Shown here piece by piece: positions 3,746 to 64,000 of a DNA stretch of 64,000 nt (its first letter is position 1; each line of letters opens with the position of its first letter). Below the pieces are notes generated by a model that saw nothing but the letters and a program-made list of their open reading frames with translations, did not search any database and was not told the origin of the DNA. A program made the translations under genes and the position numbers. Location of the stretch: IMG/VR virus record IMGVR_UViG_3300046660_000716, positions 124,001-188,000 of that record; one strand, 5' to 3'. This DNA comes from a virus.

Positions 3746-3780
3746 GAGTGTTTCCTTCGAAGGGTTGTGATGCTGGGGTC

Positions 3781-3804
3781 AACAGCTGCATCTATGCGGC
3801 TGTT
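3781..3804 (-). other. Intergenic hairpin upstream of repeat fibre gene
   Basis: AACAGCTGC pairs with GCGGCTGTT around a six-base loop, in the 75-base gap between two tail genes. No U-run follows on the minus strand. It could be an attenuator or a processing site. Confidence 0.35.
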
Positions 3805-3820
3805 AAAGAGGAGGTCGTTC

Positions 3821-4312: not shown

Positions 4313-4893
4313 GCTTCAGTCTCCCCTGCCACGCCGGCCTGGTAGCCGCCGTAGAAGTCGTCAAAAGATTCGAGGGGGAGGAAGGGTGGCGCGGGCAGGA
4401 TCTGTTCAGCCAGCTCGTCGGGCACCCCGTCTCCGTTTGCGTCGATGCCGGCGCCAGTGCTCGAGGGGCGACCCTCTGCGGAGATCTGGATCGTCAGGTG
4501 GCCTGTGGTCGGCTCGACTCCGCTGGTGTACTTCATCAGGACCGTGGACGGCCCGTCGAGGTTCGCCTGGATTGCGGGCTTGGTCAGCGGGAACTGCTTC
4601 GTGTTGCCCGCCCGCGCCGTTACGATCCCGATCAGCTCGGCGTCGGAGGCGTCGAACAGCACGTACGCCGCATCCGCCTCGAAGGCGTGCGACGTGCGGA
4701 CGAGGATCGACGAGATGGTGAATCCGGCGTCCACCGCGAAGAGCATGGTGCCCTCGGACGGGAGCGGCAGCGGGACGTCGATCTCGTAGACGAGCTGGCG
4801 CTTGAATGGCACTCCAGCCACCTTGATCGTGTCGTCCCGCTTCAGGCGGTACGGCAGGTCCGGCGACGGGGCGACTCCTTGTGGGATGGTCAT
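4309..4893 (-). CDS. Putative virion protein with a calcium-loop-like motif
   Basis: The 194-residue reading starting MTIPQGVAPSPDL is preferred; upstream in-frame codons lack a ribosome site and would run into a hairpin. The middle is beta-rich with regular hydrophobic alternation. Near the C-terminus DANGDGVPDELAE matches the DxNxDGxxD calcium-binding loop seen in EF-hand, dockerin and thrombospondin-3 repeats, which is common in extended structural proteins. It overlaps the next gene by ATGA and follows the tail tube gene, so a tail or baseplate position is likely. Calcium binding is inferred only from the loop. Confidence 0.5.
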   Translation of the reverse strand: MTIPQGVAPSPDLPYRLKRDDTIKVAGVPFKRQLVYEIDVPLPLPSEGTMLFAVDAGFTISSILVRTSHAFEADAAYVLFDASDAELIGIVTARAGNTKQFPLTKPAIQANLDGPSTVLMKYTSGVEPTTGHLTIQISAEGRPSSTGAGIDANGDGVPDELAEQILPAPPFLPLESFDDFYGGYQAGVAGETEA

Positions 4894-6067: not shown

Positions 6068-7924
6068 TTACTTGTCGACGACGATGTCGATCATCACACG
6101 CTCGATCAGGCCGTTGAATACGACTTCGGCTTTGATACGGACGATGCGCTGCTGACGGTCGTAGGCGCTGGCGTACACGGTGCCGCTCGCCGAGTCCAGG
6201 GCGCGGTTGCTCACCCAGGTCTGCAGGTAGCTGTTGACCGAGTACTGCAGCGAGTCCCAGGTCTGGCCGTCGTTGAACTCGAACTCGTAGGTCTCACCGA
6301 TGTTCTCGAGCTCGCGGCGGATGCGCAGCAGGGTGCGGACGTGGCTGATGTCGCTCAGCGCCGAGTTGACGAACTGGCTCGTCGACTGGCTGTTGAACTT
6401 GGTCTGGCGCACGTCGCGCTCGACGTAGTTCAGCTTGGCCTTGTACAGCTCTTCGCGGTACACGTCGTTCGGAGCCCAGGACATCGACTTGAAGCCGGCC
6501 ACGGCGCCGCGGCGCGGGCCGACGAACGGCCAGTGGATGCCGAAGGCCGCGTCGTTCGACGGGATCTTCTCGGCCAGGAAGTAGGTCGGCGTGACCTGGA
6601 TGTCGTTGCCCTGGAACTCGTCTTCCACAACGAAGTCCTGCACGAAGATCGCGCTGTAGAACGAGTTGATGGACAGCTGGTTCTGGCGGATCTTGATGGC
6701 CTGGCCCGGCGAGCCGGTGAAGCCGACGTCCAGGATCGACATGAAGTCGCCGCGCGCGGAAGCGAAGTTCGACATCGCCACCTTGACCGACATCGGGTAG
6801 TTGGCGTCCAGCATCATGTCGAACGGGTACGCCTTCTTGTCCCACGCGTCCGAGAACAGCGTGTCGTAGATGTTGGCGCCGCTCGACGGATCGATGAAGT
6901 CGCCCGAGCCCGAGTACGCCTTGTACAGCAGCGCCTCCAGGCTGTTCGGGCCTACCCAGTCACCGTCCGAGCCGCCGCCCATCGGGCGGAAGACCTCGGG
7001 GGTCGGGGTCAGGTCGGCCGAGCCGCTGGCGACGGTCACGCCCGCGTGGATGGTTTCCGGCACGGACACGCTGCGCTCTTGCAGGGTGAACATGTCGATT
7101 TTCTTCGCCACGGTCGCATCGTCGTTGATGTACTCGGTGATCGCGTCGTAGCCGTCCTCGCTGAACAGGCCGCGGCCGTAGTTCGAAAAGTTCTTCAGCA
7201 CGTCGACGAAGAACTGGCTGGCGCCCGAGTTGTTGGTGGCTTCAGGGTAGAACGACACCAGGAAGGTCTCGCGCTGGTCCGACGCCGAGGCGTAGAACGC
7301 CATGTCGTAGACGCGGTGCGCGTAGGTCTCGTCCAGGCGATCGTTCAGATCGATGGACAGGCCGAATGCGTTGTACTTCACGCCGCGGTCCTTGCCGCGG
7401 ATCACGGCCAGGGGGTGGTACATGAAGCCGTCGGCTTCGGGGTCGTCCGGCTGCGCCAGGACCAGGCCCTGCAGCGACGCGTCGGTGCGGATGGCCTTCT
7501 CGGTGGCCGCCGGCAGCGCGCCGCGGCCATCGCCCAGGGTGCGGGTGCGGACCTTGACTTGCTTGCCGTTGGCGGTGTCGACCTTGCAGCCGACTTCGAG
7601 GATGTACGCAGCGTAGGTCGACTGCTGCAGCGGTGCATCGTTCGCATCCTTCTCGATGTACGGCAGCACGCGCAGGCACAGCGCGGCACCGCCGGCGCGG
7701 AGCCAGCGCACCACGTTGTACGCGGTCTGGCCGTACTTGCGCATGTTGGGTGCACCGTAGTAGAAGAGGAACTCGCTGTCGGTGGTGACCAGTTGGATGC
7801 GATTGTCCGGACCAGATTCAGCCGGGAAAGCAGCGTAAAGCAGAGTCAGACCGACTGCCGTCACGAAGACCTGACTGTTGTCAATGATCCGCGAGGTTAC
7901 AGAAGGGTGGAGGTATTCAGCCAT
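6068..7924 (-). CDS. Tail sheath protein
   Basis: A 618-residue protein starting MAEYLHPSVTSRIIDNSQVF, the canonical opening of contractile tail sheath subunits (M-x-x-Y-L/x-H-P-G/S-V). An AAGGAG site precedes the ATG at 7924; longer in-frame reading upstream is non-coding. The C-terminal third carries the usual sheath core elements (YREELYKAKLNYVERDVRQTKF, then FVNSALSDISHVRTLLRIRREL) and a final strand (ERVMIDIVVDK) that would augment the neighbouring subunit. Sheath subunits wrap the tube and contract on infection, which makes this phage a myovirus. Length is within the normal range for T4-like and jumbo phage sheaths. Confidence 0.88.
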   Translation of the reverse strand: MAEYLHPSVTSRIIDNSQVFVTAVGLTLLYAAFPAESGPDNRIQLVTTDSEFLFYYGAPNMRKYGQTAYNVVRWLRAGGAALCLRVLPYIEKDANDAPLQQSTYAAYILEVGCKVDTANGKQVKVRTRTLGDGRGALPAATEKAIRTDASLQGLVLAQPDDPEADGFMYHPLAVIRGKDRGVKYNAFGLSIDLNDRLDETYAHRVYDMAFYASASDQRETFLVSFYPEATNNSGASQFFVDVLKNFSNYGRGLFSEDGYDAITEYINDDATVAKKIDMFTLQERSVSVPETIHAGVTVASGSADLTPTPEVFRPMGGGSDGDWVGPNSLEALLYKAYSGSGDFIDPSSGANIYDTLFSDAWDKKAYPFDMMLDANYPMSVKVAMSNFASARGDFMSILDVGFTGSPGQAIKIRQNQLSINSFYSAIFVQDFVVEDEFQGNDIQVTPTYFLAEKIPSNDAAFGIHWPFVGPRRGAVAGFKSMSWAPNDVYREELYKAKLNYVERDVRQTKFNSQSTSQFVNSALSDISHVRTLLRIRRELENIGETYEFEFNDGQTWDSLQYSVNSYLQTWVSNRALDSASGTVYASAYDRQQRIVRIKAEVVFNGLIERVMIDIVVDK

Positions 7925-8062
7925 TAGGCTCTCCTTGGAAAAGGGGATAGTCAGACGATCTCGGCTCTGTGCCGGATTCAATGACCTGTTGGACCGCCCC
8001 CTCTGGACGGGAGCCAGGTTTTCATGGGATCCTGACCGCGGCGGCCCCCATCCGCGGCCCCA

Positions 8063-20312: not shown

Positions 20313-22415
20313 CTACATCGGGAAGTCGCCGCCGCTCCCAGACGAGTTGAGGTCGTTCAGGATGCTCGCCATGCGCGCCCTCTTGGCCGCCTTCTCGTCG
20401 GTCATGGCGTGGTCCGCCCGCGCGACGTAGTCGTCCACGCTGACCTCCTTCTTTCCGGTCAGGGCGACGGGCACCGCCGGCCGGTCGCCGACGATGTTGA
20501 GGGCCGACACCGCGTTCATCTGGGACGCGTTGCGCTCTCCGCCCTGGCGGCCGCGCGAGATCATGCCGCGGAGCACAGGCTGGTCGTGGCGGTCGGCATA
20601 GATGCCGATCAGGAAGGACATCAGCACGTCGTCGTGGAACCCGGCGCGCGCCTCGATCTTGCCGGTCTTCTTGCGGTGCAGCGTCCGGATCTCGTCCTGC
20701 AGGTCCTCCGCTCGGATCAGGTGCGGCAGCTCGTCCACGATCTGGAAGAGGTGCCGGAACATGGCCTCGCGGCTCTCGGCGGTCGTGTCGACGCCGTAGA
20801 CGCGCACGCGCTTCTTCTGCTTAACGACCATCTTGCCGATCGTGCGCTCCGCCTCGCGCTCCTTCTCCAGGTAGAAGATCCGGGGCTCCAGGCCGGGGAC
20901 TTTCAGCAGGTGGTTGATGACCACGATGCCCAGGTAGTTGCGCTCGATGACCGCGATGCAGCGCGGGAAGAGGGACGTCATGAAGTGCTCGGTGAGCGCC
21001 CTCACCGCTCCGTCGTCGGCGGTGTTCGTCTTCAGCGTGCCGATGATGCGCATGTCGTCCGGGTGCAGCAGGTTGAACGCGGTGTAGTCGCGCCCGACGC
21101 CGCCGGACGTGTCGACGGTGAGCAGGTACGGCAGCACAGTGTCCGGCATCTCGGTGAACTCGACCTCCAGTCCCGGCTGGATGTGGGCGTGGCGCAGCTT
21201 GACCGGCAGGGTCGCCACGACGGGCTTCTGGTGCTTGCGCAGGTTCTCGAGCTGGTTCTCGTCGAAGACGGCGCCCTCGGTCGAGATCGGCCAGACCAGC
21301 AGGATCTCCCGCTTGATCTTCATCTGGTCGTTCAGCAGCTCGCGGCACTGCTCCTTGAACCACGCCTCGCTCCGGCCGAGCTCCTTGTAGGTGTACTCGG
21401 CGTAGAGGTAGTTGTACTCGGCGAGCTCCTCCATCATCTGGCGGACCTTGGTCGGGCCGTAGTCGTAGAACTCCAGGCGGAAGCGCAGGGAGCCGTTGCG
21501 GATCATGTAGGCGAACATGCCGGACGGGTCGTCCTGCGAGTTCGGCGTCGTGGTGATCACGGTGCCGAACGGGACGCCCATCTTGATCGCGGATGCGCGG
21601 GCCTGGGACTGCGCGGGGACCGCGGCCATGTACGTCTCGCGGATGAACTTCATGAACGCGATCTCGTCGTACCACACGGACGGCACGGTGTTGCCTCGTC
21701 CAAGCTTGTCGGCGTGCTCGGTGCTGGTGCCGGCCGCCTTCGGATCGATGCGGTTCTTGCGATTCTCGGAGTAGATGTACTCGATCGCGTTGCGGTCGCT
21801 GTCGTGGTCCAGGACGTTCTCCCGCAGCCAGTTCGGCAGGTTGTCCTGGATGTCCTTGACGCGCTTCAGATTGTTCTGGCTGTCCTTGAGCTCCTTGTTG
21901 AAGAACAGCATGTGGCTGTTGGTCGTCGAGAAGCCGTACTGCCAGAGGTAGATCGCGCAGGCCGACACCGTCTTGTAGTTCTGGCGCGGCAGGAGGAGGT
22001 AGCAGTTCAGGTTGCTGACCATCGCCCACGTCAGGAAGAGGTTCCCCAGGTGGAGCTCGTAGGGCACCCAGCCGCCCGGCACCGGAATGCGGACGACCTC
22101 GCGGATGAAGTAGAACGGGTTGCGGGTGATCTCCACCAGGATGCGGGCTTGGATCTCCTCCGGGAGGTCCTCGCGGTGGGGGTCGACTCCCACCAGGTCC
22201 AGGTCGTACAGCGCCAGCATGAAGGCGTTGTTCTTGATCCCCTTCTCCGCCAGGTGCGCGGAGACCTTGGTGAAGCTCTTGTTGTTCGTCCCGAAGTCGG
22301 CGTAGTAAGGGCGGCCCGGGATCTGCACGACTCCCACAGGCTGCTTCACGGGCACGGGCACCTTCAGGCGGGGCGGCAGCATGACCGGCGCCCTCTCTTT
22401 GACTGCAGCAGCCAT
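20313..22415 (-). CDS. terL: Terminase large subunit
   Basis: A 700-residue packaging motor and nuclease. The start MAAAVKERAPV at 22415 has a GAAAGGG site; an upstream GTG does not. ATPase half: LLPRQNYKTVSA at 141-152 occupies the Walker A place, VPSVWYDE at 244-251 is Walker B with the catalytic glutamate, and ITTTPN at 287-292 is the coupling motif. Nuclease half (RNase H fold): D435 in VDTSGGVGRDYTAF, E491 in AVIERNYLG and D595/D596 in FHDDVLMSF. It acts on the prohead portal to translocate and cut DNA. The Walker A lacks the usual GKT glycine (NYKT), which is odd but tolerated in some terminases. C-terminal 100 residues are polar and may bind the portal. Confidence 0.88.
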   Translation of the reverse strand: MAAAVKERAPVMLPPRLKVPVPVKQPVGVVQIPGRPYYADFGTNNKSFTKVSAHLAEKGIKNNAFMLALYDLDLVGVDPHREDLPEEIQARILVEITRNPFYFIREVVRIPVPGGWVPYELHLGNLFLTWAMVSNLNCYLLLPRQNYKTVSACAIYLWQYGFSTTNSHMLFFNKELKDSQNNLKRVKDIQDNLPNWLRENVLDHDSDRNAIEYIYSENRKNRIDPKAAGTSTEHADKLGRGNTVPSVWYDEIAFMKFIRETYMAAVPAQSQARASAIKMGVPFGTVITTTPNSQDDPSGMFAYMIRNGSLRFRLEFYDYGPTKVRQMMEELAEYNYLYAEYTYKELGRSEAWFKEQCRELLNDQMKIKREILLVWPISTEGAVFDENQLENLRKHQKPVVATLPVKLRHAHIQPGLEVEFTEMPDTVLPYLLTVDTSGGVGRDYTAFNLLHPDDMRIIGTLKTNTADDGAVRALTEHFMTSLFPRCIAVIERNYLGIVVINHLLKVPGLEPRIFYLEKEREAERTIGKMVVKQKKRVRVYGVDTTAESREAMFRHLFQIVDELPHLIRAEDLQDEIRTLHRKKTGKIEARAGFHDDVLMSFLIGIYADRHDQPVLRGMISRGRQGGERNASQMNAVSALNIVGDRPAVPVALTGKKEVSVDDYVARADHAMTDEKAAKRARMASILNDLNSSGSGGDFPM

Positions 22416-22459
22416 GGCTGGCCCTTTCTGTTGGATGTCTATCACAAGTGGATGTTTCG

Positions 22460-26207: not shown

Positions 26208-26235
26208 TTGAAAAAACATGCAACTGCTATATAAT
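26208..26235 (+). promoter_or_regulatory. Sigma70-type promoter for RNA polymerase beta piece
   Basis: TTGAAA at 26208-26213 and a perfect TATAAT at 26230-26235 are separated by 16 bases, and AT-rich sequence surrounds them. It points at the 26298 gene. This is the best sigma70-like promoter in the window and suggests early transcription by the host polymerase. Confidence 0.75.
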
Positions 26236-26297
26236 TCTCTTGAAACACCCCCGGACACTGCCCCGCACGCGGGCGGTCCCAACAAGAAAGGACCCGC

Positions 26298-27779
26298 ATG
26301 TCATCTGTATCCGAAAAACTCTATGCACGCTTTCAGAGCGCGAACCCGGAGAACACCTTCAATGACGACTTGATTTTCTGGCGCGAGAAGGACGATCCCG
26401 AGGGCTACCTCGAGGACGTGTTCCAGGCGCTCGAAGTCGTCCCAGGGATCAAGTTCAACGGCGTGACGGTCATGCGCGACGAGAGCCGCTACCCGAAGGA
26501 CCTGATGTTCAACGACATCGAGCCGTCGCGCCTGGACCTGGCACAGGTGCGCTTCCACCTGGAGATGCAGGAGAACGTCAAAGACATCACCCTGTCCATC
26601 TTCCTGCCGAAGCTGAAGGACCGCATGTTCTACGAGCTGAACGGCAGCCCGTACTACCCGATCCTCCAGCTGGTCGACCGCGGTACCTACGTGACCCGCA
26701 AGACCTTCACGCTGAAGACGCTGCTGATGCCGCTGGTGTTCCGCCGCGACTCGGTAGTCAAGGTGCAGGACACGGTCAGCGAGAAGGAGTACGAGGAGCT
26801 GATCTACACGCTCGACCTCTTCCGCAACCGCATCAACATCTTCCGCTACCTCTTTGCCAGCAAGGGCATGGCCGGCACGATGGAGTTCCTCGGCATCAAC
26901 ACCGAGACCGAGGTCATGCTGTGCGTCAAGGACGAGGTGAAGAACACTGAGCCCGGCACGTACCGCATCTACGACGTCAAGGGCGCCGCCGGCCTGTGCG
27001 TCGTCGCGGAGGAGTCGTGGGTCGCGCAGAACCCGCACTACCGCGGAGCCATCATGGTGACGCTGGCCGACGCCCTGGACGGCATCCAGCGCCGCCTGAT
27101 CGAGGAGGACGACATCGCGCAGTGGAAGCGCCGCCTCGGCCGCCACTTCACGCAGAACTCCAACGGCTACGAGGAAAAGGCGGACAAGATCCTCATCAGC
27201 CTGCAGCGCATCCTGGACCAGCGCACCAAGAAGAACCTGGCGCACGTCGCGCCAGAGGACAAGGTGGACGTGTACTGTATCCTCCGCTGGATGATGCGCG
27301 AGTATAAGACGCTGGTGCAGGTCGACGGCATGGACGTGCGCAACAAGCGCATCCGCGTGTCCGAGTACCTGATCCACCCGCTGCTGCTGAAGTTCTCCGA
27401 GTCCACGTACCGCCTGCTGAACTCGAAGAACCTAACCTTCCGCTCCCTGGTCGGCGTGTTCCGTCCGTTCATCCACGACGTCGACGACCCGAAGTCGAAG
27501 CCACAGACGAACTTCCTCATCAAGAAGCTGGTGATGAACGAGCTTTTGAGATATAACAATATGGTCAACTCGTTCGACCTGATCCCTGCGCTCCGGTGGA
27601 CGACGCGCGGGCCGCAGTCCCTGAGCGACCGGAGCCGATCGGACATCTCGTTGCGGTTCAGGGGCCACCACCCATCGTACGTTGGGCGTATCGGGTTGAG
27701 CGCAGCAAGCGCATCCGATCCTGGCACGAGTGGCACGTTGGTGCCGTTTTGCAAGACCGATTCGCAGTTCTTTCTGTAA
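26298..27779 (+). CDS. Phage RNA polymerase beta-type subunit, N-terminal piece
   Basis: A 493-residue polypeptide matching the first half of bacterial beta. MDVRNKRIRVSEYLIHPL at 345-362 corresponds to the DHLGNRR-R segment. TTRGPQSLSDRSRSD near 435-449 matches the ALGPGGLTRERAG segment, and GHHPSYVGRIGLS near 456-468 matches [21 protein letters not shown]. The protein stops just after this, so the rest of beta, including the catalytic lysines, must be encoded elsewhere. Split beta subunits are known in phiKZ-like and AR9-like jumbo phages. The AAGAAAGGA site before the ATG and the sigma70-like promoter upstream suggest early expression. It is not the N-terminus of the beta at 61780, which has its own copy of the same regions. 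Confidence 0.85.
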   Translation: MSSVSEKLYARFQSANPENTFNDDLIFWREKDDPEGYLEDVFQALEVVPGIKFNGVTVMRDESRYPKDLMFNDIEPSRLDLAQVRFHLEMQENVKDITLSIFLPKLKDRMFYELNGSPYYPILQLVDRGTYVTRKTFTLKTLLMPLVFRRDSVVKVQDTVSEKEYEELIYTLDLFRNRINIFRYLFASKGMAGTMEFLGINTETEVMLCVKDEVKNTEPGTYRIYDVKGAAGLCVVAEESWVAQNPHYRGAIMVTLADALDGIQRRLIEEDDIAQWKRRLGRHFTQNSNGYEEKADKILISLQRILDQRTKKNLAHVAPEDKVDVYCILRWMMREYKTLVQVDGMDVRNKRIRVSEYLIHPLLLKFSESTYRLLNSKNLTFRSLVGVFRPFIHDVDDPKSKPQTNFLIKKLVMNELLRYNNMVNSFDLIPALRWTTRGPQSLSDRSRSDISLRFRGHHPSYVGRIGLSAASASDPGTSGTLVPFCKTDSQFFL

Positions 27780-39066: not shown

Positions 39067-39747
39067 ATGAATAACGCCAAGCTCATAGCAGTAGACACCG
39101 ACGACGTGTTGGTCCACATCACCACCCCGTGGATCCTGCGCGCCGCCGCGCATCCGGACCTCCGCCAGTTGCTGGAGGCCGTGATCGGCAAGCACTACCC
39201 GAACGACGGCGACCTGACGCGCGCCCTGCTGGCGCGCCCGCACCCCTACATCCAGGACTGGCTGACCGCGGCGCACGCGCTCTCGCCTAGCCTGTACCCG
39301 GCGCTGGACATGGTGTACCGCGGCGACCCCGCCTTCTACGACGACCTGCCGCCGACCCAGTACTGCCAGGCCATCCGGGCCGCGATGTCGATGCCGGGCC
39401 GCGTGGCCCACGTGCACGTCATCACGCACAACTTCGACAACGCCGACCCGTGCGCCGAGAGCAAGGAGCGCTGGCTGCGCAGGTGGCTGGGGGAGCGCGA
39501 CCGCGTGACCATCCACCACGTCCAGGCCGGCCAGAAGAAGTCCGACGTGATCGCCGAGCACTGCCCCGAGGCGGACTCGTTCGCGGACGACTCAATGAAG
39601 AACGTCGTCGACATCCTGCTGCACGACGGCTGCAAGCCCCGCGAGATCCTGATCCCGCGCATGGGACACAACGTCATGAGCGAGCAGATCGCGACCCTGG
39701 CGGTGCTGCGCAAGATCAGCATCGTCTACTACGAAAACGCACTCTAG
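39067..39747 (+). CDS. HAD-superfamily phosphatase-like protein
   Basis: A 226-residue protein with HAD phosphatase motifs: motif I VDTDDVL (nucleophile D10, D12), motif II VITHN near residue 120, motif III lysine in QKKSDVI near 158, and motif IV FADDSMKNV near 178. The order and spacing match 5'(3')-deoxyribonucleotidase-type and polynucleotide-phosphatase-type enzymes, with a helical cap between motifs I and II. A role in nucleotide or nucleic-acid end processing is inferred. GAGACCG precedes the ATG, a weak site. Confidence 0.7.
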   Translation: MNNAKLIAVDTDDVLVHITTPWILRAAAHPDLRQLLEAVIGKHYPNDGDLTRALLARPHPYIQDWLTAAHALSPSLYPALDMVYRGDPAFYDDLPPTQYCQAIRAAMSMPGRVAHVHVITHNFDNADPCAESKERWLRRWLGERDRVTIHHVQAGQKKSDVIAEHCPEADSFADDSMKNVVDILLHDGCKPREILIPRMGHNVMSEQIATLAVLRKISIVYYENAL

Positions 39748-41985: not shown

Positions 41986-42036
41986 CCGCCATGGATCGCA
42001 AGGTCCATGGCGGTCCCCTAACCGCAACATTTTTTT
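41986..42036 (+). other. Hairpin plus U-run in leader of RNA polymerase beta-prime piece
   Basis: CCGCCATGGA pairs with TCCATGGCGG around an eight-base loop, with a run of seven T about 16 bases later, only 25 bases before the 42061 start. It may be an attenuator controlling beta-prime expression or the end of an upstream transcript. Confidence 0.5.
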
Positions 42037-42060
42037 GATCAACATCTTGGGATTTTTACC

Positions 42061-43587
42061 ATGGAACTCTCCGCACTCAACGTCGACAAGTTCATCGAGG
42101 TGAACCAGCTGCAGCCCGTGACGGCCCTCACCTTCTTCGAGGCGACCGGCGCTCCCACGGAGGGCGGCCTGTTCTCCACGTCCATCTTCGGGCGGGCCGG
42201 GTCCGAGGACCGCCGCCGCCGCTGGGCCTATATCGACCTCAACGGTCGCTTTCTGCATCCGCTCGTCTATAAAACGATCACCCAGTTGAACCGTAAGTTC
42301 CCCGACATCGTGGCCGGCCTGCAGCGCGTGCGGCTCACCCGCTCCGGCGAGATGCAGAACGTCCCCGACGAGGAGAACGAGGGCTGGAGCGGCCTGGACG
42401 CGCTGTACGAGCACTGGACCGAGATCAACTGGGGTGTGGCCGAGCCGGGCTCCCAGCGCGCCGAGCGCGTGGGCATGCTCAACGCCCTGCGCAAGCACCG
42501 CGACATCGCGTTCGTAACGAGGTGGCACGTCATCCCTGCCATGTTCCGCGACGTGGACACCTCCTCGGGCGACCGCATCAAGGAGGTCCCGCCCATCAAC
42601 TCGCTGTACATCCAGATGATGACCAGCGCGCCAACCCGCGTGTCCGGCCTCACCTTCGTCGACGGGACCAGGAAGCGCCGGGCGCAGGAGACGCTGTACG
42701 AGCTGCACCGCTCCGCCCTGGACCTCATCAGCGGCAAGCACGGCCTGATCCAGGACCGCGTGCTCGGCAAGTACACCGACTGGGCAGTGCGCGGCGTGCT
42801 GTCCGGCCCGGCGCTGGCCAAGGCGGCCAAGCCCGGGGAGCAGGAGGTTCCGTTCGGCACCATCGGCATGCCGCTGTACCTGGTGATCAACGCCTTCCAG
42901 CCGTTCGTCATCAAGCGGCTGACCGAGATCTTCCGACTGTACGCCACCGGGCAGGAGCGCATCCTGGTGCGCACCGAGGAGGGCAAGGAGCCGGTGTACT
43001 TCGAGATCCCGGCCGAAGCGAAGGCCCAGCTGGAGCCGGAGCTGTACAAGAAGTGGATCTCCCGCTTCATGCGCAGCCAGGCCAACAGGCTGGACGTGGT
43101 GTCGCTGAAGACAGGCAAGGGCAAGACGATCGCCCTGCCGCTGTACGACGCGGTGCTGGGGCGCCCGACGACCCTGCTGGACCTCTTCTTCATTGTAGCG
43201 CAGGACGTGATCGCGGACAAGTACGTGATGTTCACGCGGTACCCCGTCGAGGACTTCCGGGCGTGCCACTTCGCCAAGCCCGTGGTGCTGACCACGGAGC
43301 GAACGGAGTTGGTCACGATCGGTGCTCACGAGTATAAGCGCTACCCGATCATCACAGGGCGGCCAAGGTGGATTGACAGCTTCCGGATCAACAACAGCTA
43401 CACGAAGGCGATGGGCGCCGACTACGACGGAGACACGCACCGGGTGGTCGGAATCTTCACGCAGGAGGCCAACGCCGAGGCGGAGCATCTCATCCAGCAG
43501 CCGACGAACTACTGCGACGGCCAGGGCAACGCCAGCCGCCCCGTGGCCAACGAGGCCATACTCACGCTGTACGCTCTGACCAAGTAG
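42061..43587 (+). CDS. Phage RNA polymerase beta-prime subunit, N-terminal piece with catalytic motif
   Basis: A 508-residue polypeptide matching the first half of bacterial beta-prime. GGLFSTSIFG near residue 35 matches the zipper-region GGLFD..IFGP segment. LGKYTDWAVRGVLSGPALAKA corresponds to the LLGKRVDYSGRSVI segment (lid/rudder area). WHVIPAMFRDV matches the segment before the clamp. MGADYDGDTHR at 451-461 is the catalytic Mg-binding NADFDGD motif (D454, D456, D458). It ends right after VANEAILTLYALTK, at the known split site of jumbo phage beta-prime. The C-terminal half is probably the 52568 product. Followed by a terminator and an HNH endonuclease gene. Weak ribosome site. Confidence 0.9.
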   Translation: MELSALNVDKFIEVNQLQPVTALTFFEATGAPTEGGLFSTSIFGRAGSEDRRRRWAYIDLNGRFLHPLVYKTITQLNRKFPDIVAGLQRVRLTRSGEMQNVPDEENEGWSGLDALYEHWTEINWGVAEPGSQRAERVGMLNALRKHRDIAFVTRWHVIPAMFRDVDTSSGDRIKEVPPINSLYIQMMTSAPTRVSGLTFVDGTRKRRAQETLYELHRSALDLISGKHGLIQDRVLGKYTDWAVRGVLSGPALAKAAKPGEQEVPFGTIGMPLYLVINAFQPFVIKRLTEIFRLYATGQERILVRTEEGKEPVYFEIPAEAKAQLEPELYKKWISRFMRSQANRLDVVSLKTGKGKTIALPLYDAVLGRPTTLLDLFFIVAQDVIADKYVMFTRYPVEDFRACHFAKPVVLTTERTELVTIGAHEYKRYPIITGRPRWIDSFRINNSYTKAMGADYDGDTHRVVGIFTQEANAEAEHLIQQPTNYCDGQGNASRPVANEAILTLYALTK

Positions 43588-43983: not shown

Positions 43984-44812
43984 GAGCGCGAACGACACGA
44001 TAGCCTCGCTGGCGCGGGAGTACAACGTTCACTCCACCACGATGCGCATGGCCGTGCGCGGGACAACGTGGGCCAACCGTGACCCCGCCTCCGTGCCCGA
44101 GCCCGAGGGCATGCGACGCATCCCTGGCTACTCTGCCTACTTCGCTGACCGGCGCGGCGACATCTACTCCGCCCGCCAGAGCGACTCGCTGAAGCCGCTG
44201 GCGTTCGGTGCCTCCGGCAAGGGTAGGAAGGTCTTCCTGATCGCGGACGGGGCCGAGAAGGGTCACACCGCGCAGGTCCACGATCTCATCTGCGCCGCGT
44301 GGCACGGCCCGCGTCCGACGGACCGCCACCGCGTCCGCCACATCGACGAGGACCGCACCCACAACTCGCCGGACAATCTGGCCTGGGGCGAGCCCGGCGA
44401 GGTTCCCCGCTCCGGCGGCGGGGCCACAGGGGAGGCGCACGGCCGCTCCAAGCTGACCGACGCTGACGTGCTGCAGGTGCTGGCCTACGCGGCGGCCGGC
44501 GAGCGCCCCGCCGACATCGCGCGGCACAAGCACGTCCACCCGACGACGATCTCGGGCATCGTGGCCCGCCGTCTATGGAGCCACGTCCAGATCCCGGACG
44601 GCGGCCTGCCGGCCGTCGCCCCGCTCCCGCACGCCGACCGGCGCGTGTCCTCCGGTCAGAACCACGGCCGCGCCAAGCTCAATGACGCCGCCGTCGGCCG
44701 TATCCGCCTCAGCCTGCCCCACAAGAGCAACGCGGAGCTCGCCAAGGAGGAGAAGGTCCACCCGACCACCATCGCAAGGATCCGCTCGGGCCGCGGCTGG
44801 AGGGCGCCGTGA
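43892..44812 (+). CDS. HNH endonuclease, probable homing endonuclease
   Basis: A 306-residue protein with AGAAGGA before the ATG. The core VHDLICAAWHG (H130), HRVRHIDEDRTHNSPDNLAW (H150, N158/N162) is a typical HNH nuclease centre. Three similar helix-turn-helix units flank it: residues 15-60 (ILTPEIVESCKARLAA...EYNVHSTTMRMAVRGTTW), 184-228 (KLTDADVLQVLAYAAAGERP) and 258-303 (KLNDAAVGRIRLSLPHKSN, ending STTIARI-like). Such repeats set DNA-site recognition. Homing endonucleases sit next to conserved genes such as RNA polymerase; this one lies directly downstream of beta-prime. Overlaps the next gene by GTGA. Confidence 0.8.
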   Translation: MTQQETPRRPGRRPILTPEIVESCKARLAAESANDTIASLAREYNVHSTTMRMAVRGTTWANRDPASVPEPEGMRRIPGYSAYFADRRGDIYSARQSDSLKPLAFGASGKGRKVFLIADGAEKGHTAQVHDLICAAWHGPRPTDRHRVRHIDEDRTHNSPDNLAWGEPGEVPRSGGGATGEAHGRSKLTDADVLQVLAYAAAGERPADIARHKHVHPTTISGIVARRLWSHVQIPDGGLPAVAPLPHADRRVSSGQNHGRAKLNDAAVGRIRLSLPHKSNAELAKEEKVHPTTIARIRSGRGWRAP

Positions 44813-46290
44813 GCGCCGTTGCGGCGGCGGACTTCGTCGGAACCGAGTTCGCCGGGGAGGTGGACGACAAGGGATATTTCCGGCGGGACTTCTCGCCCGA
44901 GCTGGAGGGTAGCCGGGAGCAGTGGACGGAGTACTGCGACGTGCAAGAAAGCTTCAGGACCCTGGGATACGAGCTCCGGGAACACTACTCAGAACACGAC
45001 TGCCTCACCGGCACCGTCGTCAAACTTAAGGCAGATATGACCATCGACCCATCCTCCATCAACCTGGAAGCCCTGCGCCAGGACGCTTGCAACTCGGCCC
45101 TGCGCAAGATCAACGCCAGCGAGACCCTGACCACCGCACTGATCGCCCGCGCCTGCTACGACGCGAACGGCGAGTACTGCAAGCTGGCCGGCGACGCCGA
45201 CCCGCTGCCGTGGGACCAGTGCTCCGCCTCGACCGAGGAGGGCGTGCTGTTCCGCATCAAGAATCCGGACGCTCCGAACAGCGCCCTGCACGAGAACTGG
45301 CTGAAGTCTAAGGCTGCGGACGGCTGGAAGTGGGGCGAGGTCAAGAACGTCGAGACCAAGGAGCACCCGGCGTTCCTGCCGTACGATAAGCTGCCCGAGA
45401 CCCAGCGCCTCAAGGACGAGCTGTTCACCCGCGTGGTGATGTTCCTGGTGCGCTATTTGGACCCGGCCCAGCTGGCCAACATCCGCTCGACTGGCACCGC
45501 GCCGGTCAGCGAGATCGCCTACGAGGGCGACGGCTTTGACGGGGACCCCGCCCTCGCTTTTAGCCAGGCCGACGCGATCGTAGCATCGGTCGTCGCCGGC
45601 CTGCCCAGCCACCGCGTGCTGACCGTCGGCGATCTCCCGAAGGCGTTCTACGATGCATGCAGCCTCTTCTACACCTCGCTGGGCGACACCGCGCAACTGG
45701 CCTACGTCGGCGGCGTGGTCGACAACTGCACCGCGCGCGTCATGTACGCGCTGGGCGGCGACTACGAGTCGGCCCAGGCCCAGCACGAGGACGTCGTCTC
45801 CATGATGCTGGAGGAGGGCTGGCGCTTCAGCACCGAGCGCGGCATCGACGCGGTCGCCATGGTCAGCCCGTACCTGTGCCCATGGGGCGACCTGCCGCTG
45901 CGCCGCAAGGTCGAGGAGACGATCCTGTTCGACGTCATCAAGGCCCTGAAGCCGGTGCTGGTGGGCCAGAAGGCGCCGGAGCCCGCCTCGATCGCGGGCC
46001 TGACCAACCTGTACAAGGGCGGGCAGGGCGACGCCCGCCAGTCGGACTCGCCCGTGCTCGATCCCGAGTGCAGCCTGTTCCGCAAGCGCTACCGCAAGCT
46101 GAGCGAGCCCGAGGTCGCGCTGCACGACGCGATCAAGGACAAGGCCGACGAGCTGTACCGCCTGTTCATGCAGGTCTCGCCGATCGACAAGGGCCAGGAC
46201 GCCAACCGCGAGCGCGGCGCCAACGTCCAGCTGGGCGTGCGCCACCTGGAGGACGCCGTGTACCGCGTGGTCAAGGGCCTGACGTCGTGA
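44809..46290 (+). CDS. Protein with two RyR-like domains
   Basis: A 493-residue acidic protein (GTG start in a GTGA overlap; an internal ATG at 45037 with AAGG upstream is an alternative). Residues about 150-215 carry a RyR-domain signature: NPDAPNSALHENWLKSKAAD, GWKWGEVKNVETKEHPAFLP and YDKLPETQRLKDELF. A second, weaker copy is at about 315-385 (MMLEEGWRFSTERGIDAVAM, then PWGDLPLRRKVEETILFDVI). A third weaker segment lies before the first. RyR domains are found in bacterial and phage proteins, some linked to conflict systems, and may sense a ligand. The role here is unknown. Confidence 0.65.
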   Translation: MSAVAAADFVGTEFAGEVDDKGYFRRDFSPELEGSREQWTEYCDVQESFRTLGYELREHYSEHDCLTGTVVKLKADMTIDPSSINLEALRQDACNSALRKINASETLTTALIARACYDANGEYCKLAGDADPLPWDQCSASTEEGVLFRIKNPDAPNSALHENWLKSKAADGWKWGEVKNVETKEHPAFLPYDKLPETQRLKDELFTRVVMFLVRYLDPAQLANIRSTGTAPVSEIAYEGDGFDGDPALAFSQADAIVASVVAGLPSHRVLTVGDLPKAFYDACSLFYTSLGDTAQLAYVGGVVDNCTARVMYALGGDYESAQAQHEDVVSMMLEEGWRFSTERGIDAVAMVSPYLCPWGDLPLRRKVEETILFDVIKALKPVLVGQKAPEPASIAGLTNLYKGGQGDARQSDSPVLDPECSLFRKRYRKLSEPEVALHDAIKDKADELYRLFMQVSPIDKGQDANRERGANVQLGVRHLEDAVYRVVKGLTS

Positions 46291-52567: not shown

Positions 52568-54436
52568 CTACCCACCAAAGAGGCTATCGATCACCCCGGG
52601 CTGCGTCTTGCGAAGGATGTCCGTGGAGGTCAGCTGCGCCTTGACGCGCTCGAACGCCAGCGAGTTGGTGACGCTCGGGCTGGACAGGATGGCCGGGGTC
52701 AGCTTCAGGACGGCGTACGGCGGCTCGTCCGGGCCGGTCGAGAAGTCCGGGCGGTTCATGTGGTCGGTGGCGCTGCGCACCTGGGCGCGCAGGATCATCT
52801 CGGCGTGGACCGACGGGGTGCGCAGCTCGGATTTGGTGAGCAGCGCCATCAGGCGGGCGTACGCGTCGTGGTACGTGGCGATCTCCTCGCGCTCGATCAG
52901 GTTGAAGATCGAGTGCAGGGCCTCGGACAGGTCCGTGTTGCTGATCGGGACCTGGAAGACCGAGCTGTCCTGCAGCGGGGACAGGGTGAGCTCGCCGTCG
53001 TCGACCTCGGTGTTCTCCCACGCCTCGTCGTCGAGGTAGATGGGCACCGGGGTCGTAATCTTGATCCGGCTCTGCTTGCCGGCGATCTTGTAGTAGAAGA
53101 TCGTGGTGGAGCGGCGGTCCTCGTCCTCGTCGAGCTCGATGTCGTCCTGCTTGACGTACACGCGGAAGACGGTGCTCTCGGCGATGACCGAGGTGCGCTC
53201 GACGGAGAAGTGCTTGAGGAAGTCCTCCGGCCAGTTGATCTTGGTCGGGCGAGCCTTCAGCAGGTGCTTGGAGGACAGCAGGCGCTGCAGGATCTGCTCG
53301 GAGATGATCAGCACACCGTAGATGCCGGCGTGGATGCTCGCGTTGCTGCGGGCCAGGGCGCCGTAGCAGTGGTGGCAGACGCCGTTCTTGCCCGCGCAGG
53401 TGATCGGCGAGCGCAGGGCGATGTCCTGTTCGACCAGGCCCTCCAGCTCGCCTTCCTCGGCGAGGTGCCACTGCTGGTTGGCGTGGGTGGCGATGTAGCG
53501 ACCCTCCAGGCGAGCCGCGTGGTCCAGGCTCAGGACCTTGGTCTGCACGCCGTGCAGCGTCTCGCAGTCCTCCAGGTCCGGGTCGATGAAGTGGTTGGCG
53601 ACCAGCAGGACCAGCTTGCGCGACAGGTAGCCCGAAGTCTTCACCTGCTTGTAGTTGGTGGTCAGCGCCTTGCGGGCGCCGATCGCGCAGATGTAGAAGT
53701 CTTCGACGCCGCGCATGCCGCGCAGGAAGCTGGTGTCGATCGGCTCCGGCATCAGCTGGCCGTCCATCAGGCCCGGCTTCACGCCGATGCTCACGAACGC
53801 CTGGCGCATCTGGCCGATGTTGACGGCCGAGCCCGAGCGCAGGAGGCGACCCAGCTCGCCGGGCAGCGCCTTCAGGCGCGTGTTCAGCTCTTCGGTGGCC
53901 GCGTCGGCGGCCTTCTCGATGTCGCCCAGCTCGCCCACGGGGGCCTGCCAGCGCAGCAGCTTGCGGATCTCGGGGTCGCGCTCGCCGGCCTCGAAGAGGC
54001 CCTTGATGCTGATGCTCGTGCCTACGCGCCCGACCACGGCGATCGCCAGGTCCTGCACGTAGTTCACGGCGGCGGCGACGGCCATGTTCAGGGTGTCCGG
54101 GTCCAGCACGCGGTACAGCGCCTTGATGGTGACGTCCAGGTGGACTTCCAGGTACTTCGCGTTGATGATCTCACGCACAAAGCGGTCGGCCGGCGGCTGG
54201 ACCTGGGCGACGTGGTACGGGTAGAGCAGCGACAGGCTCGCTAGCGCGCGCCCGACCGACATTTCCTCCGGCCCGTTGCCGCACTCGACGAGGATGGTGC
54301 CGTGGCGGCCGCCGTCCTCTCCCAGCGAGAGCTCGTGCAGCTGCTGCATGACGTCCTCGTAGCTCCCGCCTTCCTGGTCTGCCAGCGCGGCGACGAGGTC
54401 CACGACCTGAATGTCGGCTTCCATCATTTGATCCAT
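52568..54436 (-). CDS. Phage RNA polymerase beta-prime subunit, C-terminal piece
   Basis: A 622-residue polypeptide starting MDQMMEADIQ (AAGGGG site). Matches the second half of beta-prime: SGSAVNIGQMRQAF (residues 201-214) and FYICAIGARKALTTNYKQVK with TSGYLSRKLV (247-275) are the bridge helix and trigger loop region (SGARGSAAQIRQ, STHGARKGL...TANSGYLTRRLV). C291, C347, C354 and C357 (ITCAGKNGVCHHCYG) are the second zinc site, CX6CX2C. GVLIISEQILQRL matches the GVIAAQSIGEPGTQL segment. Ends at GVIDSLFGG, matching the ENVIVGRLIPAGTG end. It partners the 42061 N-terminal piece or its counterpart in the other polymerase. Own TATAAT lies upstream. Confidence 0.9.
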   Translation of the reverse strand: MDQMMEADIQVVDLVAALADQEGGSYEDVMQQLHELSLGEDGGRHGTILVECGNGPEEMSVGRALASLSLLYPYHVAQVQPPADRFVREIINAKYLEVHLDVTIKALYRVLDPDTLNMAVAAAVNYVQDLAIAVVGRVGTSISIKGLFEAGERDPEIRKLLRWQAPVGELGDIEKAADAATEELNTRLKALPGELGRLLRSGSAVNIGQMRQAFVSIGVKPGLMDGQLMPEPIDTSFLRGMRGVEDFYICAIGARKALTTNYKQVKTSGYLSRKLVLLVANHFIDPDLEDCETLHGVQTKVLSLDHAARLEGRYIATHANQQWHLAEEGELEGLVEQDIALRSPITCAGKNGVCHHCYGALARSNASIHAGIYGVLIISEQILQRLLSSKHLLKARPTKINWPEDFLKHFSVERTSVIAESTVFRVYVKQDDIELDEDEDRRSTTIFYYKIAGKQSRIKITTPVPIYLDDEAWENTEVDDGELTLSPLQDSSVFQVPISNTDLSEALHSIFNLIEREEIATYHDAYARLMALLTKSELRTPSVHAEMILRAQVRSATDHMNRPDFSTGPDEPPYAVLKLTPAILSSPSVTNSLAFERVKAQLTSTDILRKTQPGVIDSLFGG

Positions 54437-54477: not shown

Positions 54478-54539
54478 CACTTTTTTGTTGCAAACGTGTT
54501 CAATTTTTCACCCAAAGCTAGTGCGATGCGAAAACAATA

Positions 54540-57353: not shown

Positions 57354-57408
57354 TCGCGTCTCTCCTTGGGTTGGTCGGTGCGGGGCCGGAAGTCGCCCTT
57401 GCACTTCC

Positions 57409-57435
57409 ATGATATCGTTGCAACGGACCTGTCAG
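57409..57435 (-). promoter_or_regulatory. Promoter-like element for SbcC-like gene
   Basis: On the minus strand CTGACA (57430-57435) and TATCAT (57409-57414) are 15 bases apart, 56 bases before the 57353 start. A near-consensus sigma70 pair with a short spacer. Confidence 0.5.
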
Positions 57436-60268: not shown

Positions 60269-60970
60269 CTAAGCGATCCACAGCCTGCGGGCCGTGGACG
60301 ACTTCAGCTGCTTGCTCTCCATCCGCTCGATGATCTCCGGCCGCTTGTCCGCCTGGGCGTTCAGCCGCTCCAGGTTCAGGTTCAGCTCGCCGAAGATCGT
60401 CTGCACGGTCTGGAAGTACTGCCGGACGCTCAAGATGTCGATGGCGATGTCCGCCAGCATCAGCTCCCTGAAGATCTCCCTGGCCCCCGGGTGGATGGTG
60501 CGGAAGTGCGTCGCGTGCACGCACTTGCACTCCACGTAGAGGTCGGAATATTGGAGGCCCTTTGGGAAAATTTCGATGATGTTGGGAGGGCGGTAGTCGA
60601 ACGTCAGGGAGAGCTCGGAAGCCGACTGGCGGTCGGCCACCAGCTGGCGGTCCAGGACGTCGCCGAACATGAGAGGATCATATGGGAAGGCGCCGAAAGC
60701 CCCAACCCCTTCACGCACACGATTCACGCCGAGAATTCGTTCGCCTTGCGGGCGGATCTGGTAGACGCCCTCGCGCTGGTCGATGCGGTCGGCCACTGTG
60801 TCAATTTTGAGATCGACCATGTACGGCAAGTAGATCGAGAACGTCGGTAGGGTCTCGGCGTCAATGCAGGCGAGTATGTCGGCGTCGTTGAAGTCGATCG
60901 GACCTGTAACCGTCTGCCCTAAGAAGGACCTACAGCGGTTCGTAACCCACGTCGCGTCGATTATGGACAT
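60269..60970 (-). CDS. Hypothetical protein, probable virion component
   Basis: A 233-residue protein with AAGGAA before the ATG, which lies inside the end of the HNH gene. Beta/helix mix with DFNDADILACIDAETLPTFS, DYRPPNIIEIFPKG (a phrase found in structural proteins of large phages) and a helical C-terminus (ELNLNLERLNAQADKRPEII). A neck or baseplate-type role is possible. Separated from the polymerase beta by the HNH gene. Confidence 0.5.
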   Translation of the reverse strand: MSIIDATWVTNRCRSFLGQTVTGPIDFNDADILACIDAETLPTFSIYLPYMVDLKIDTVADRIDQREGVYQIRPQGERILGVNRVREGVGAFGAFPYDPLMFGDVLDRQLVADRQSASELSLTFDYRPPNIIEIFPKGLQYSDLYVECKCVHATHFRTIHPGAREIFRELMLADIAIDILSVRQYFQTVQTIFGELNLNLERLNAQADKRPEIIERMESKQLKSSTARRLWIA

Positions 60971-61722
60971 TGGAATTCCTTAAAAAGGTGGTGATAGGCC
61001 GGAATATCGTTGAGACAGATCCTTCGCACTGTCACCTTATGTGGTTTGCCATTCAACAGCACAGCAATTTCGGTATACGTCTTCTTGTCAACGAAATGCA
61101 GCGTGTAGACTCTCTTTACTAGCTCGTCATCAAGAAGACGAGAGGTAGGTATCCTGGATTGCGTTTCCTGGAAGTCGCGCGGCTCATATCCTAGCGGTAC
61201 ATGCGACCAGAATTTACCCTTGTACACATCTACGACATACGATGGACTCAGGTTGAGCCTCACGGCAGCGCTGGCGGGCGTTTCGCCGTTGTGTAACGCC
61301 GTTCGGAGAGCAATTACTTCCTCGCGCGTAAGCTTTGCCCGTGGGTGGTCCTCGTCCCGTGCCAAGCGGTGTGCAAGCCGATCCGCCATGTTCTGAACCT
61401 TGGTGCCCCAGTACAAATTACTGCACACGGGGTTTGACCTAACGCCATCCTTATGGCACGCCTCCAAGATTGCGTCCGACTCTGGAAGAGGGATGAACGT
61501 GCGCGCAACCATGTTGTGCACTATAAACATGGCATCACCGCCTAATTTCAGTCGTAGACTGATATGCACATATCCAGTTGTACTAGACACATGCGTTTTC
61601 ATTTGCCTTGGCGTCGAACTACGCAGCGTGGAAAACACTTCTCCACGCCGATTGATGAAATAGCCGTCTACCAGACGATCATCGACAATTGGAAATAGTT
61701 CTGCGGTATCTTCTTCGGTCAT
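60961..61722 (-). CDS. HNH homing endonuclease of lower GC content
   Basis: A 253-residue protein (GGGGAGG site). HNH-like core: VHNMVARTFIPLPESDAIL, EACHKDGVRSNPVCSNLYWG (the H/N/N-type residues of an HNH nuclease), followed by AKLTREEVIALRTALHNGET and SYVVDVYKGKFWSHV, a helix-turn-helix unit of the same type as in the 43892 protein. GC content is near 48 percent by rough count against about two-thirds elsewhere. It lies directly after the RNA polymerase beta gene, a typical homing site. Recent acquisition is inferred. Its stop overlaps the 60269 start. Confidence 0.8.
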   Translation of the reverse strand: MTEEDTAELFPIVDDRLVDGYFINRRGEVFSTLRSSTPRQMKTHVSSTTGYVHISLRLKLGGDAMFIVHNMVARTFIPLPESDAILEACHKDGVRSNPVCSNLYWGTKVQNMADRLAHRLARDEDHPRAKLTREEVIALRTALHNGETPASAAVRLNLSPSYVVDVYKGKFWSHVPLGYEPRDFQETQSRIPTSRLLDDELVKRVYTLHFVDKKTYTEIAVLLNGKPHKVTVRRICLNDIPAYHHLFKEFQCP

Positions 61723-61779: not shown

Positions 61780-64000
61780 TTACTCGTTGTAGATCTCCAA
61801 GACTCGCTTCTTCAGGTCGACCAGGACTGCGTTTGACCACATCGCCAGGAAGACGTCCGACGTCATGCGGCTGACGATCGACAGCGGGCTCGTGATGTAG
61901 TCCACCTGGTTGCCTTCCTCGTCCTCCGGCTCTTCGCCGTCCTCGAACACGCGGCTGACGATGCCCTTGAGCGGGGAGCTGCACACGAACTTGTCGCCCG
62001 GCGCCGCCTCGTCCTCGACCTGGATCAGGAACTGGATCAGCACGCCGTCCACGATCTCCCCGGCCACCTTGTCCCGCGTGATGCGGATCGGGGCGTTGGC
62101 GCGCACGGGCTCGTCGGTCGGGGCTCCGGCGCCGGCCTTCTTGCGCTCGTCCGCCAGCCGCTCCTGCAGCCTGATGAACTTCTGCAGCGACGGCGACAGC
62201 TGGTCGAGGTCCTTGTTGTAGTACGTGCGGATCTCGACCACCTTGCCGGCGTACTTCGCCACGGCCACGTTGCGTGTGAGCTCGGCGATCGCGTCGTCGA
62301 ACTCCTTGCCGACCCGCGCCAGCAGCGCCGACACGTCGGCGTCGTCCGTCACGTTCTCGAACACGGCCAGCGAGTCGTTCGGCTGTACAACGGTCCCGAC
62401 CTTGGCCACGCCCTGCAGGTTGGTCTTGGCGCCCAGGCTCACGGAGCGGGCCATCGTGACCAGGGCCACGGTGTCGCGCGTCAGCTTGGAGGTCACCATC
62501 AGGCTGTCCTCGTACGTCTGGTCCAGCGCCACGATGGCGATGCGAGCCAGGATCCCGCTCTTGTAGCCGGTGGAGCCGTCGTCGCTCGCCGCGAAGTAGG
62601 ACGGGTCGTGCGCCAGGATGTCGTCCTGGGCGAACCGCTTGCCCGGCTCCACGCCGGGGTTGAGCTTGAGCTGGGCTGTGATGTAGAAGCCGCCGCCCGA
62701 GTTCTTGACCGAGCGGGGCGACATGTCCACGTAGGCCAGCTCTCCGTCGTCGTACTTGATCTTAGCCAGCTGCGCCTTCTCGTCCAGCGAGACGAACACC
62801 CCTGCTTTGCGGGCCTTGTACGCGTACGTGTTGCCGATGGCGTAGGCCAGGGCCTTCTCGGCACCGGAGCCGACCAGCTGCGGCGTGTGCTTGGCGATCG
62901 GCATGGTGTGTGTCGCCTGCTTGGACTGCATGCCGATCCGCGGAGGGTCGGCGTGCTGCGCCACGAACGGCGTGATCAGCTCCCCCAGGGCCAGGACCGA
63001 TGCGGCGTCCGTGGCGGCCAGGTCCAGGTCGAACCTGCCGCGCACGTCCTTCACCGCGGCCGAGTAGGCCAGGGTGCGCTTGACGCCGATCTCGGCCGAG
63101 TCGGGCGAGTAGTAGCCGAAGATGCCGCGCATCGACTTGTGGTACGCGCGCATGGCGCGATTCACGGTGCGTCCGTCGCTCAGGCCGCCGGCGGCGCCGG
63201 TCCACGTGGCCTTGCCGCGCAGCTCAGCCTCGAGCAGGGGGTTCAGCAGGGAGACCTCCTCGACGTTGGAGGCGGCCTGGACCTGGCGGATCACCTCGAC
63301 CGGGTTGACCATGAGCTTCTGCGGCGAGGCCGACTCGCGGGTGGCGCGCACGCGCTCCATCTCCTTGTGCAGCACCTTGTACAGCATCGAGTTGACCAGC
63401 TCCGGGCCGCGCAGGCGGTACGACGCCATGTCGTTCGACTCGGGGTGCTCGTTGCTCTCCAGCATGGCGCTGGCATACAGCAGGACGTGGGCCATGTCGG
63501 TTGGCAGGCCGTCCTCGGCCAGCAGGTCGCGGGTCATCGGGTCGATGAACGATGCCTGGTAGTTGACCAGCGCCTTGGCGTGGCCCGGGCCGCCGAGGCG
63601 GTCGGCGATGTGGTCCACCCAGCCCATGCCGGCCGGGCCGAAGTCCGACATCGGCCGGTCCTCGGTGTCCAGCTCCTTCAGGCCGTTGATCAGCAGCGAG
63701 TCGCGCAGGCGCGTCGGGGCGAACACCACCACGCCGTCCTCGAACCGGATGGCGTCGCTCTCTGCGTAGCGGCTCTTGCGGTAGGCGCCGGCGTCGACGA
63801 TGGAGAACTGCACCTGCGCCGCGCGCAGCATGTTCGTCAGGCCGATGTCGTAGCCCACGATGACGGCGGTCGGCAGGTACTGGCTCAGCATCTTGACGCG
63901 GCTGTACATGTACTTGCGCTGGAGGACGCTCGGCTCCGGGAGGTCGGCCGCCGGGGCGGCCTCGCGCACCATGTCGTAAATCAGGGCGCCGATGTCCTTG
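61780..64000 (-). CDS. Phage RNA polymerase beta-type subunit (second), N-terminus beyond window
   Basis: At least 739 residues; the frame is open to the window edge, so the ATG at 63972 is internal. Beta landmarks: RGPELVNSMLYKVLH (DHLGNRR area), NPLLEAELRGKAT then TWTGAAGGLSDG (NPLSEITHKRR...GPGGL area), GMQSKQATHTMPI (NMQRQAVP), YEDSLMVTSKL (NYEDSI, in the active-site area), GDKFVCSSPLKGIVSR (GDKMAGRHGNKGV, conserved lysines) and TSPLSIVSRM (NPLGVPSRM). It ends 28 residues after this last motif and so lacks the C-terminal clamp (GGQRFGEME). It overlaps in content with the 26298 protein, so the phage has two beta subunits. Followed by an HNH gene. Confidence 0.88.
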   Translation of the reverse strand, partial: KDIGALIYDMVREAAPAADLPEPSVLQRKYMYSRVKMLSQYLPTAVIVGYDIGLTNMLRAAQVQFSIVDAGAYRKSRYAESDAIRFEDGVVVFAPTRLRDSLLINGLKELDTEDRPMSDFGPAGMGWVDHIADRLGGPGHAKALVNYQASFIDPMTRDLLAEDGLPTDMAHVLLYASAMLESNEHPESNDMASYRLRGPELVNSMLYKVLHKEMERVRATRESASPQKLMVNPVEVIRQVQAASNVEEVSLLNPLLEAELRGKATWTGAAGGLSDGRTVNRAMRAYHKSMRGIFGYYSPDSAEIGVKRTLAYSAAVKDVRGRFDLDLAATDAASVLALGELITPFVAQHADPPRIGMQSKQATHTMPIAKHTPQLVGSGAEKALAYAIGNTYAYKARKAGVFVSLDEKAQLAKIKYDDGELAYVDMSPRSVKNSGGGFYITAQLKLNPGVEPGKRFAQDDILAHDPSYFAASDDGSTGYKSGILARIAIVALDQTYEDSLMVTSKLTRDTVALVTMARSVSLGAKTNLQGVAKVGTVVQPNDSLAVFENVTDDADVSALLARVGKEFDDAIAELTRNVAVAKYAGKVVEIRTYYNKDLDQLSPSLQKFIRLQERLADERKKAGAGAPTDEPVRANAPIRITRDKVAGEIVDGVLIQFLIQVEDEAAPGDKFVCSSPLKGIVSRVFEDGEEPEDEEGNQVDYITSPLSIVSRMTSDVFLAMWSNAVLVDLKKRVLEIYNE

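Follow-up and report, generated by a model that had tools for sequence, protein, structure and literature searches.

Two beta proteins on one phage contig

Why would a single stretch of phage DNA carry two genes for the beta subunit of RNA polymerase (RNAP)? The question is raised by the window analysed here, 64,000 nucleotides that form positions 124001-188000 of a 259-kb contig (259,338 bp; contig position = window position + 124000). In it, a first-pass annotation had found DHLGNRR-like and GPGGL-like beta regions in two open reading frames (ORFs), which it took for paralogues and not for two halves of one subunit, and had proposed that the phage carries two polymerases. The features concerned are as follows.

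Window 26298-27779 (contig 150298-151779), plus strand: N-terminal half (493 aa) of the non-virion RNAP (nvRNAP) beta subunit, homologue of AR9 nvRNAP betaN
Window 61780-64000, minus strand: C-terminal 739 of the 1362 aa of the virion RNAP (vRNAP) beta subunit (PHROG, PF00562, phiR1-37 g099)
Window 63067-63654, minus strand: v-beta residues 739-934, homologous to nv-betaN 266-482 (hhalign, E 2.9e-5)

Both proteins proved to be beta. The best solved relative of the first is AR9 nvRNAP betaN (PDB 7s00 chain c, E 5e-88); it also matches PHROG 2943 and is 36-39% identical to AR9 gp104 (RefSeq tag) and phiR1-37 g194. The second gene runs 1868 bp beyond the window end, and its whole product (contig 185780-189868, minus strand, 1362 aa) matches the vRNAP-beta families PHROG 14872 and 3148 (E 1e-141 and 1e-121, respectively), PF00562 and the vRNAP beta of phiR1-37 (g099, 32% identical), AR9, PBS1 and Staphylococcus jumbo phages. 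The ORF at 26298 encodes no more than the N-half of nv beta, and v beta is unsplit, its C-terminal part being encoded by the ORF at 61780.

Comparing nv-betaN with v-beta gave no significant match with the initial shallow alignments, whereas deeper family alignments (13 and 9 sequences, including IMG/VR relatives) placed nv-betaN 266-482 over v-beta 739-934. The aligned region covers both motif regions, with DVRNKRIR of nv-betaN over NDMASYRLR of v-beta and RGPQSLSD over TGAAGGLSD. The motifs that had first drawn attention are degenerate but in register, and the two proteins are therefore overlapping paralogues, as proposed, and not two halves. Residues 873-1340 of v-beta align to E. coli beta 516-1112, including GPGGL (hhalign, E 1e-16), and the match of nv-betaN to E. 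coli beta alone was weak (E 0.035).

A free-standing HNH-type ORF (window 60961-61722, minus strand) adjoins v beta and resembles the AR9 HNH endonuclease of the nv beta'N intron (E 1e-6).

Subunit sets of the two polymerases

Two multisubunit RNAPs are a known trait of AR9/phiKZ-type phages. The rest of the genome was searched for a second beta C-terminal piece, which is present, and the remaining subunits were located as well.

Contig 96677-98761, plus strand: nv betaC, AR9 betaC homologue (E 2e-106)
Contig 3006-4415, plus strand: nv beta'N, AR9 orthologue
Window 52568-54436 (contig 176568-178436), minus strand: nv beta'C, AR9 gp153 homologue (E 2e-75), PHROG 3015
Contig 234921-236438, plus strand: gp226-like promoter specificity subunit (E 3.7e-52)
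Window 42061-43587 (contig 166061-167587), plus strand: v beta'N with catalytic GADYDGD, AR9 gp144 (E 5e-69), PHROG 2986 (E 2e-81)
Contig 89787-90530, plus strand: v beta'mid, piece of the vRNAP set
Contig 242987-244255, minus strand: v beta'C, piece of the vRNAP set

The nvRNAP core (betaN, betaC, beta'N and beta'C) is present in full as AR9 orthologues, together with the gp226-type subunit, and the vRNAP set comprises beta, beta'N, beta'mid and beta'C. For most pieces the AR9 orthologue was the best match (RefSeq tags gp088, gp104, gp153, gp269 and gp225 for nvRNAP; gp188, gp144, gp077 and gp263 for vRNAP). All RNAP genes are uninterrupted reading frames; both enzymes keep the beta' catalytic motif (GADYDGD and GGDYDGD) and the beta catalytic lysines (PGDK and LKG in v beta, GSK and GKG in nv betaC). 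Downstream of the gp226-like gene comes a primase-like ORF, separated from it by a small ORF; AR9 and phiR1-37 have a similar gene order here. Judged by sequence, the two multisubunit polymerases are confirmed as gene content, each with complete beta and beta' sets and nvRNAP with its specificity subunit.

Other genes on the contig include a ThiF/E1-like protein, unusual for a phage (contig 9079-9813, plus strand; PF00899, E 2e-12), and a 493-aa protein (window 44809-46290, plus strand) in which two domains score above cut-off, RyR (PF02026, E 1e-10) and, at the C terminus, the Acb2/Tad1 hairpin (PF24729, E 1e-7). The latter protein could possibly be a sponge for cyclic-nucleotide defence signals, acting in CBASS/Thoeris counter-defence.

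Lineage and GC content

The pair of enzymes had been read as a phiKZ-type trait that is unusual in so GC-rich a phage. Two enzymes are indeed encoded, but phiKZ itself is not among the nearest relatives, which are AR9, PBS1, phiR1-37 and S6, all phages with uracil DNA. The nv-betaN protein matched AR9/phiR1-37/Staphylococcus/Listeria-type records only, with no match among phiKZ-type records, and its tree placed the phage as sister to the phiR1-37 clade (support 98/97) on a long branch. These protein comparisons put the phage in the AR9/PBS1/phiR1-37 lineage, for which uracil-containing DNA is known, and not in phiKZ proper.

No close relative came up in IMG/VR when single sequences were used as queries. 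Alignment queries retrieved 13 nv-betaN, 13 v-beta and 6 gp226-like loci, the last skewed to the VIW motif, since VIW served as the search pattern. GC content is 65% over the contig and even at 63-67% along the sequence, which makes a chimeric contig unlikely. The IMG/VR relatives include contigs with 50-57% GC, and Burkholderia and Xanthomonas jumbo phages with RNAP genes have about 56% GC around the v beta gene. Because RNAP-encoding relatives at 50-57% GC exist, the 65% is extreme but neither isolated nor unique. The phage is a deep-branching, GC-rich new representative of the AR9/phiR1-37 type.

Early-type promoters

Two boxes emerged from the intergenic k-mers of the phage. The genome has 28 copies of ATATCAT-6N-G, compared with 0 for a reversed-pattern control, and this motif lies upstream of nv beta'N, among other genes; ATATAAT-6N-G sits before nv betaN, the nv betaC operon and the gp226-like gene. 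An AT-rich box, six bases and G(+1) is the vRNAP promoter layout in AR9, phiKZ and phiR1-37 (PMC5312081). Examples in the window, as motif matches, are:

Window 26229-26242, plus strand: early-type promoter ATATAAT-6N-G of nv betaN
Window 57402-57415, minus strand: early-type promoter ATATCAT-6N-G of the SbcC-like gene

The TATAAT boxes at nvRNAP genes might instead be host sigma70 promoters, so that the host polymerase, and not vRNAP, would make nvRNAP. The genome holds just nine TATAAT, and they lie 41-75 nt upstream of five nvRNAP transcription units, three of them as TGnTATAAT, as this account would have it. However, three of the sites conform to ATATAAT-6N-G, which has the same layout as the ATATCAT-6N-G set; nv beta'N additionally has ATATCAT-6N-G; inspection by eye revealed no consistent -35 boxes; and early transcription in phiKZ and AR9 is independent of host RNAP (PMC7598289, PMC5312081). 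We consider host promoters unlikely here, and an A variant of the vRNAP box is the better reading than a separate sigma70-type class.

Late-type promoters

AACA-6N-T(A/G), the AR9 nvRNAP late promoter consensus (PMC5312081, PMC9209446), was tested in the phage as a prior hypothesis with dinucleotide shuffles as control. It occurred in 19 of 68 upstream regions, compared with 2.1 +/- 1.3 in the shuffles, and peaked sharply at spacing 6, with background counts at spacings 5 and 7 (1 and 4, respectively). In a hold-out of 40 kb of previously unused phage sequence, the motif was found in 4 of 11 regions (0.3 expected from shuffles). The identical procedure gave 68/152 against 14.8 in AR9, the positive control, and 4/26 against 2.0 in 50 kb of phiKZ, the negative control. 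The motif was likewise in excess in phiR1-37 (27/64 against 5.2) and in an IMG/VR relative, G002 (10/31 against 2.5), and MarsHill showed a weak peak (15/61 against 6.8). AACA ranked first among the 256 tetramers at spacing 6 in the phage, AR9 and phiR1-37. The late-type promoters of the phage include the following motif matches.

Window 26215-26226, plus strand: AACA-6N-TG before nv betaN
Window 42026-42037, plus strand: AACA-6N-TG of v beta'N
Window 54478-54489, minus strand: AACA-6N-TG of nv beta'C
Window 7979-7990, minus strand: AACA-6N-TG of the tail sheath gene (6068-7924)
Window 22445-22456, minus strand: AACA-6N-TG of the terminase gene (20313-22382)

Among the phiR1-37 genes tested, the motif lies upstream of 18 of 21 annotated as structural and of 9 of 43 others (Fisher p 9e-7); an RNA-seq study of that phage described early and late promoters without a sequence difference and no late motif (PMC4848604). 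The 40 kb sampled from a relative with 55% GC, G001, had no late peak (2/33 against 1.7), and this relative may have a different late code or the sample may be poor in late genes. Its gp226-like protein retains the valine (DRVMW) despite the absent AACA-6N-T(A/G) peak in those 40 kb.

A proposed two-step transcription cascade

Taking both motifs together, 23 of 79 upstream regions carried the late motif, 16 the early motif and 1 both, figures that, like our other promoter statistics, draw on 164 of the 259 kb, a home-made gene caller and discovery stretches mostly picked around RNAP genes. The two motif classes are nearly exclusive and divided by gene function. The early motif stands before nv beta'N, the gp226-like gene, the recombinase with nv betaC, topoisomerase, SbcC and a guanylate-kinase-like gene, and the late motif before the tail sheath, terminase, homologues of phiR1-37 structural proteins, a tape-measure-like gene, v beta'N and nv beta'C. 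A motif is not visible at every RNAP gene: nv betaN has both and nv beta'C the late motif only, and the regions immediately before v beta, v beta'mid, v beta'C and the protease gave no late motif.

This split by function fits a cascade from the v enzyme to the nv enzyme, and we put the probability that two alpha-less multisubunit RNAPs of AR9/phiR1-37 type drive a two-step cascade in this phage at about 0.92. By analogy with AR9 and phiR1-37, whose g099, g203 and g231 (phiR1-37) are annotated as structural proteins, the virion-type enzyme (one-piece beta; beta' as N, mid and C) would be packaged and come in with the DNA. It would initiate at the ATAT(C/A)AT-6N-G promoters ahead of the nvRNAP and other non-structural genes. 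The new non-virion enzyme (betaN and betaC, beta'N and beta'C, and the gp226-like subunit) would then initiate at AACA-6N-T(A/G) of the structural genes and would also read at least one vRNAP gene, beta'N; if it does transcribe v beta'N, the next virions would for that reason carry the v enzyme.

Two other accounts of the subunit genes fare worse than the cascade. That only one enzyme works, the other beta set being decayed or foreign (from a second phage or a chimeric contig), could be argued from the scatter of both subunit sets along the contig, but a single contig, whose GC stays at 63-67% throughout, carries all nine pieces as open frames, neither enzyme has lost its catalytic residues, and there are separate orthologues of both AR9 enzymes and two promoter classes, which makes this very improbable. 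That the ORFs at 26298 and 61780 are halves of one split beta is barely conceivable: nv beta is truly split, with the ORF at 26298 as its N-half, but its C-half lies elsewhere (contig 96677-98761) and the ORF at 61780 both overlaps the ORF at 26298 and belongs to a 1362-aa protein that has a separate N-terminal part, so that the overlap and the additional betaC gene refute it.

Predicted uracil in the phage DNA

AR9 nvRNAP requires U at template-strand positions -11 and -10, and V206 of AR9 gp226, reported to be invariant in known dU phages, blocks the thymine methyl group (PMC9209446). In the gp226-like protein of the phage the U-pocket residues V206 (V220 in its own numbering, within SDKVIW), I207 and Y210 are kept; in nv betaN, R363 is kept and K375 is not, likewise in phiR1-37 and MarsHill. 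Two genes bear on nucleotide supply.

Contig 239182-239817, plus strand: dCTP deaminase (PF22769, E 6e-20; TIGR02274, 103.8 bits, cut-off 92.8)
Window 39067-39747, plus strand: homologue of the AR9 deoxyribonucleotidase gp150 (blastp, E 3.5e-16, 26%)

The deaminase is a possible source of dUTP. The deoxyribonucleotidase homologue, for which Pfam, NCBIfam and PDB gave no match, lies between DNA polymerase and v beta'N, the same as in AR9, and is a candidate dTMP remover. Against uracil, the phage gave no match to dCMP deaminase, nor to Ugi in a search run with no positive control. Thymidylate synthase was not found in the phage. On balance we lean slightly towards uracil in the phage DNA. We give marginally better than even odds to a wider proposal, in which a 65%-GC genome would have uracil for thymine and a late enzyme needing template-strand uracils in AACA-6N-T(A/G), a code kept lineage-wide from Bacillus phages of about 28% GC to the present phage.

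Two-polymerase jumbo phages are already known. To our knowledge, few isolates of the uracil-DNA branch have been sequenced, and AR9 is the only one for which the late promoter is established. What is new is that both promoter classes could be read from sequence alone in a GC-rich genome, where they stand out against background, and that the AR9 late code is extended to phiR1-37 and to a genome with 65% GC. The phage is a strong candidate for a GC-rich uracil-DNA genome, and conservation of the uracil-reading promoter code becomes directly testable.

Comparison with known systems

With phiKZ (Chimalliviridae), the phage shares two alpha-less polymerases and early promoters of the AT-box-6N-G type. 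The phiKZ nvRNAP is related at a much greater distance (7ogp against P0003, E 2e-10; nothing for nv-betaN), and phiKZ differs in lacking an excess of AACA-6N-T(A/G) over the 50 kb covered and in its own thymine DNA and phage nucleus.

The likeness to the Bacillus phage AR9 (PBS1 group) extends to the two enzymes, the split nv beta and beta', the gp226-type subunit, the nvRNAP late consensus AACA-6N-T(A/G) and early promoters of the AT-box-6N-G type (PMC5312081, PMC9209446). The two phages differ in GC content (65% in ours, about 28% in AR9), with subunits 25-38% identical, and in the early box, ATAT(C/A)AT as opposed to AAATATATATTAT in AR9. Unlike in AR9, no introns were seen in the RNAP genes and Ugi was not found, and the phage has a dCTP deaminase where AR9, phiR1-37 and MarsHill have a dCMP deaminase.

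Apart from that dCMP deaminase, the Yersinia phage phiR1-37 differs in its 33% GC and an nv-betaN about 39% identical to that of the phage. It shares with the phage the one-piece v beta, an equal subunit set, a separate small mid-beta' (247 vs 248 aa) and AACA-6N-T(A/G) before structural genes.
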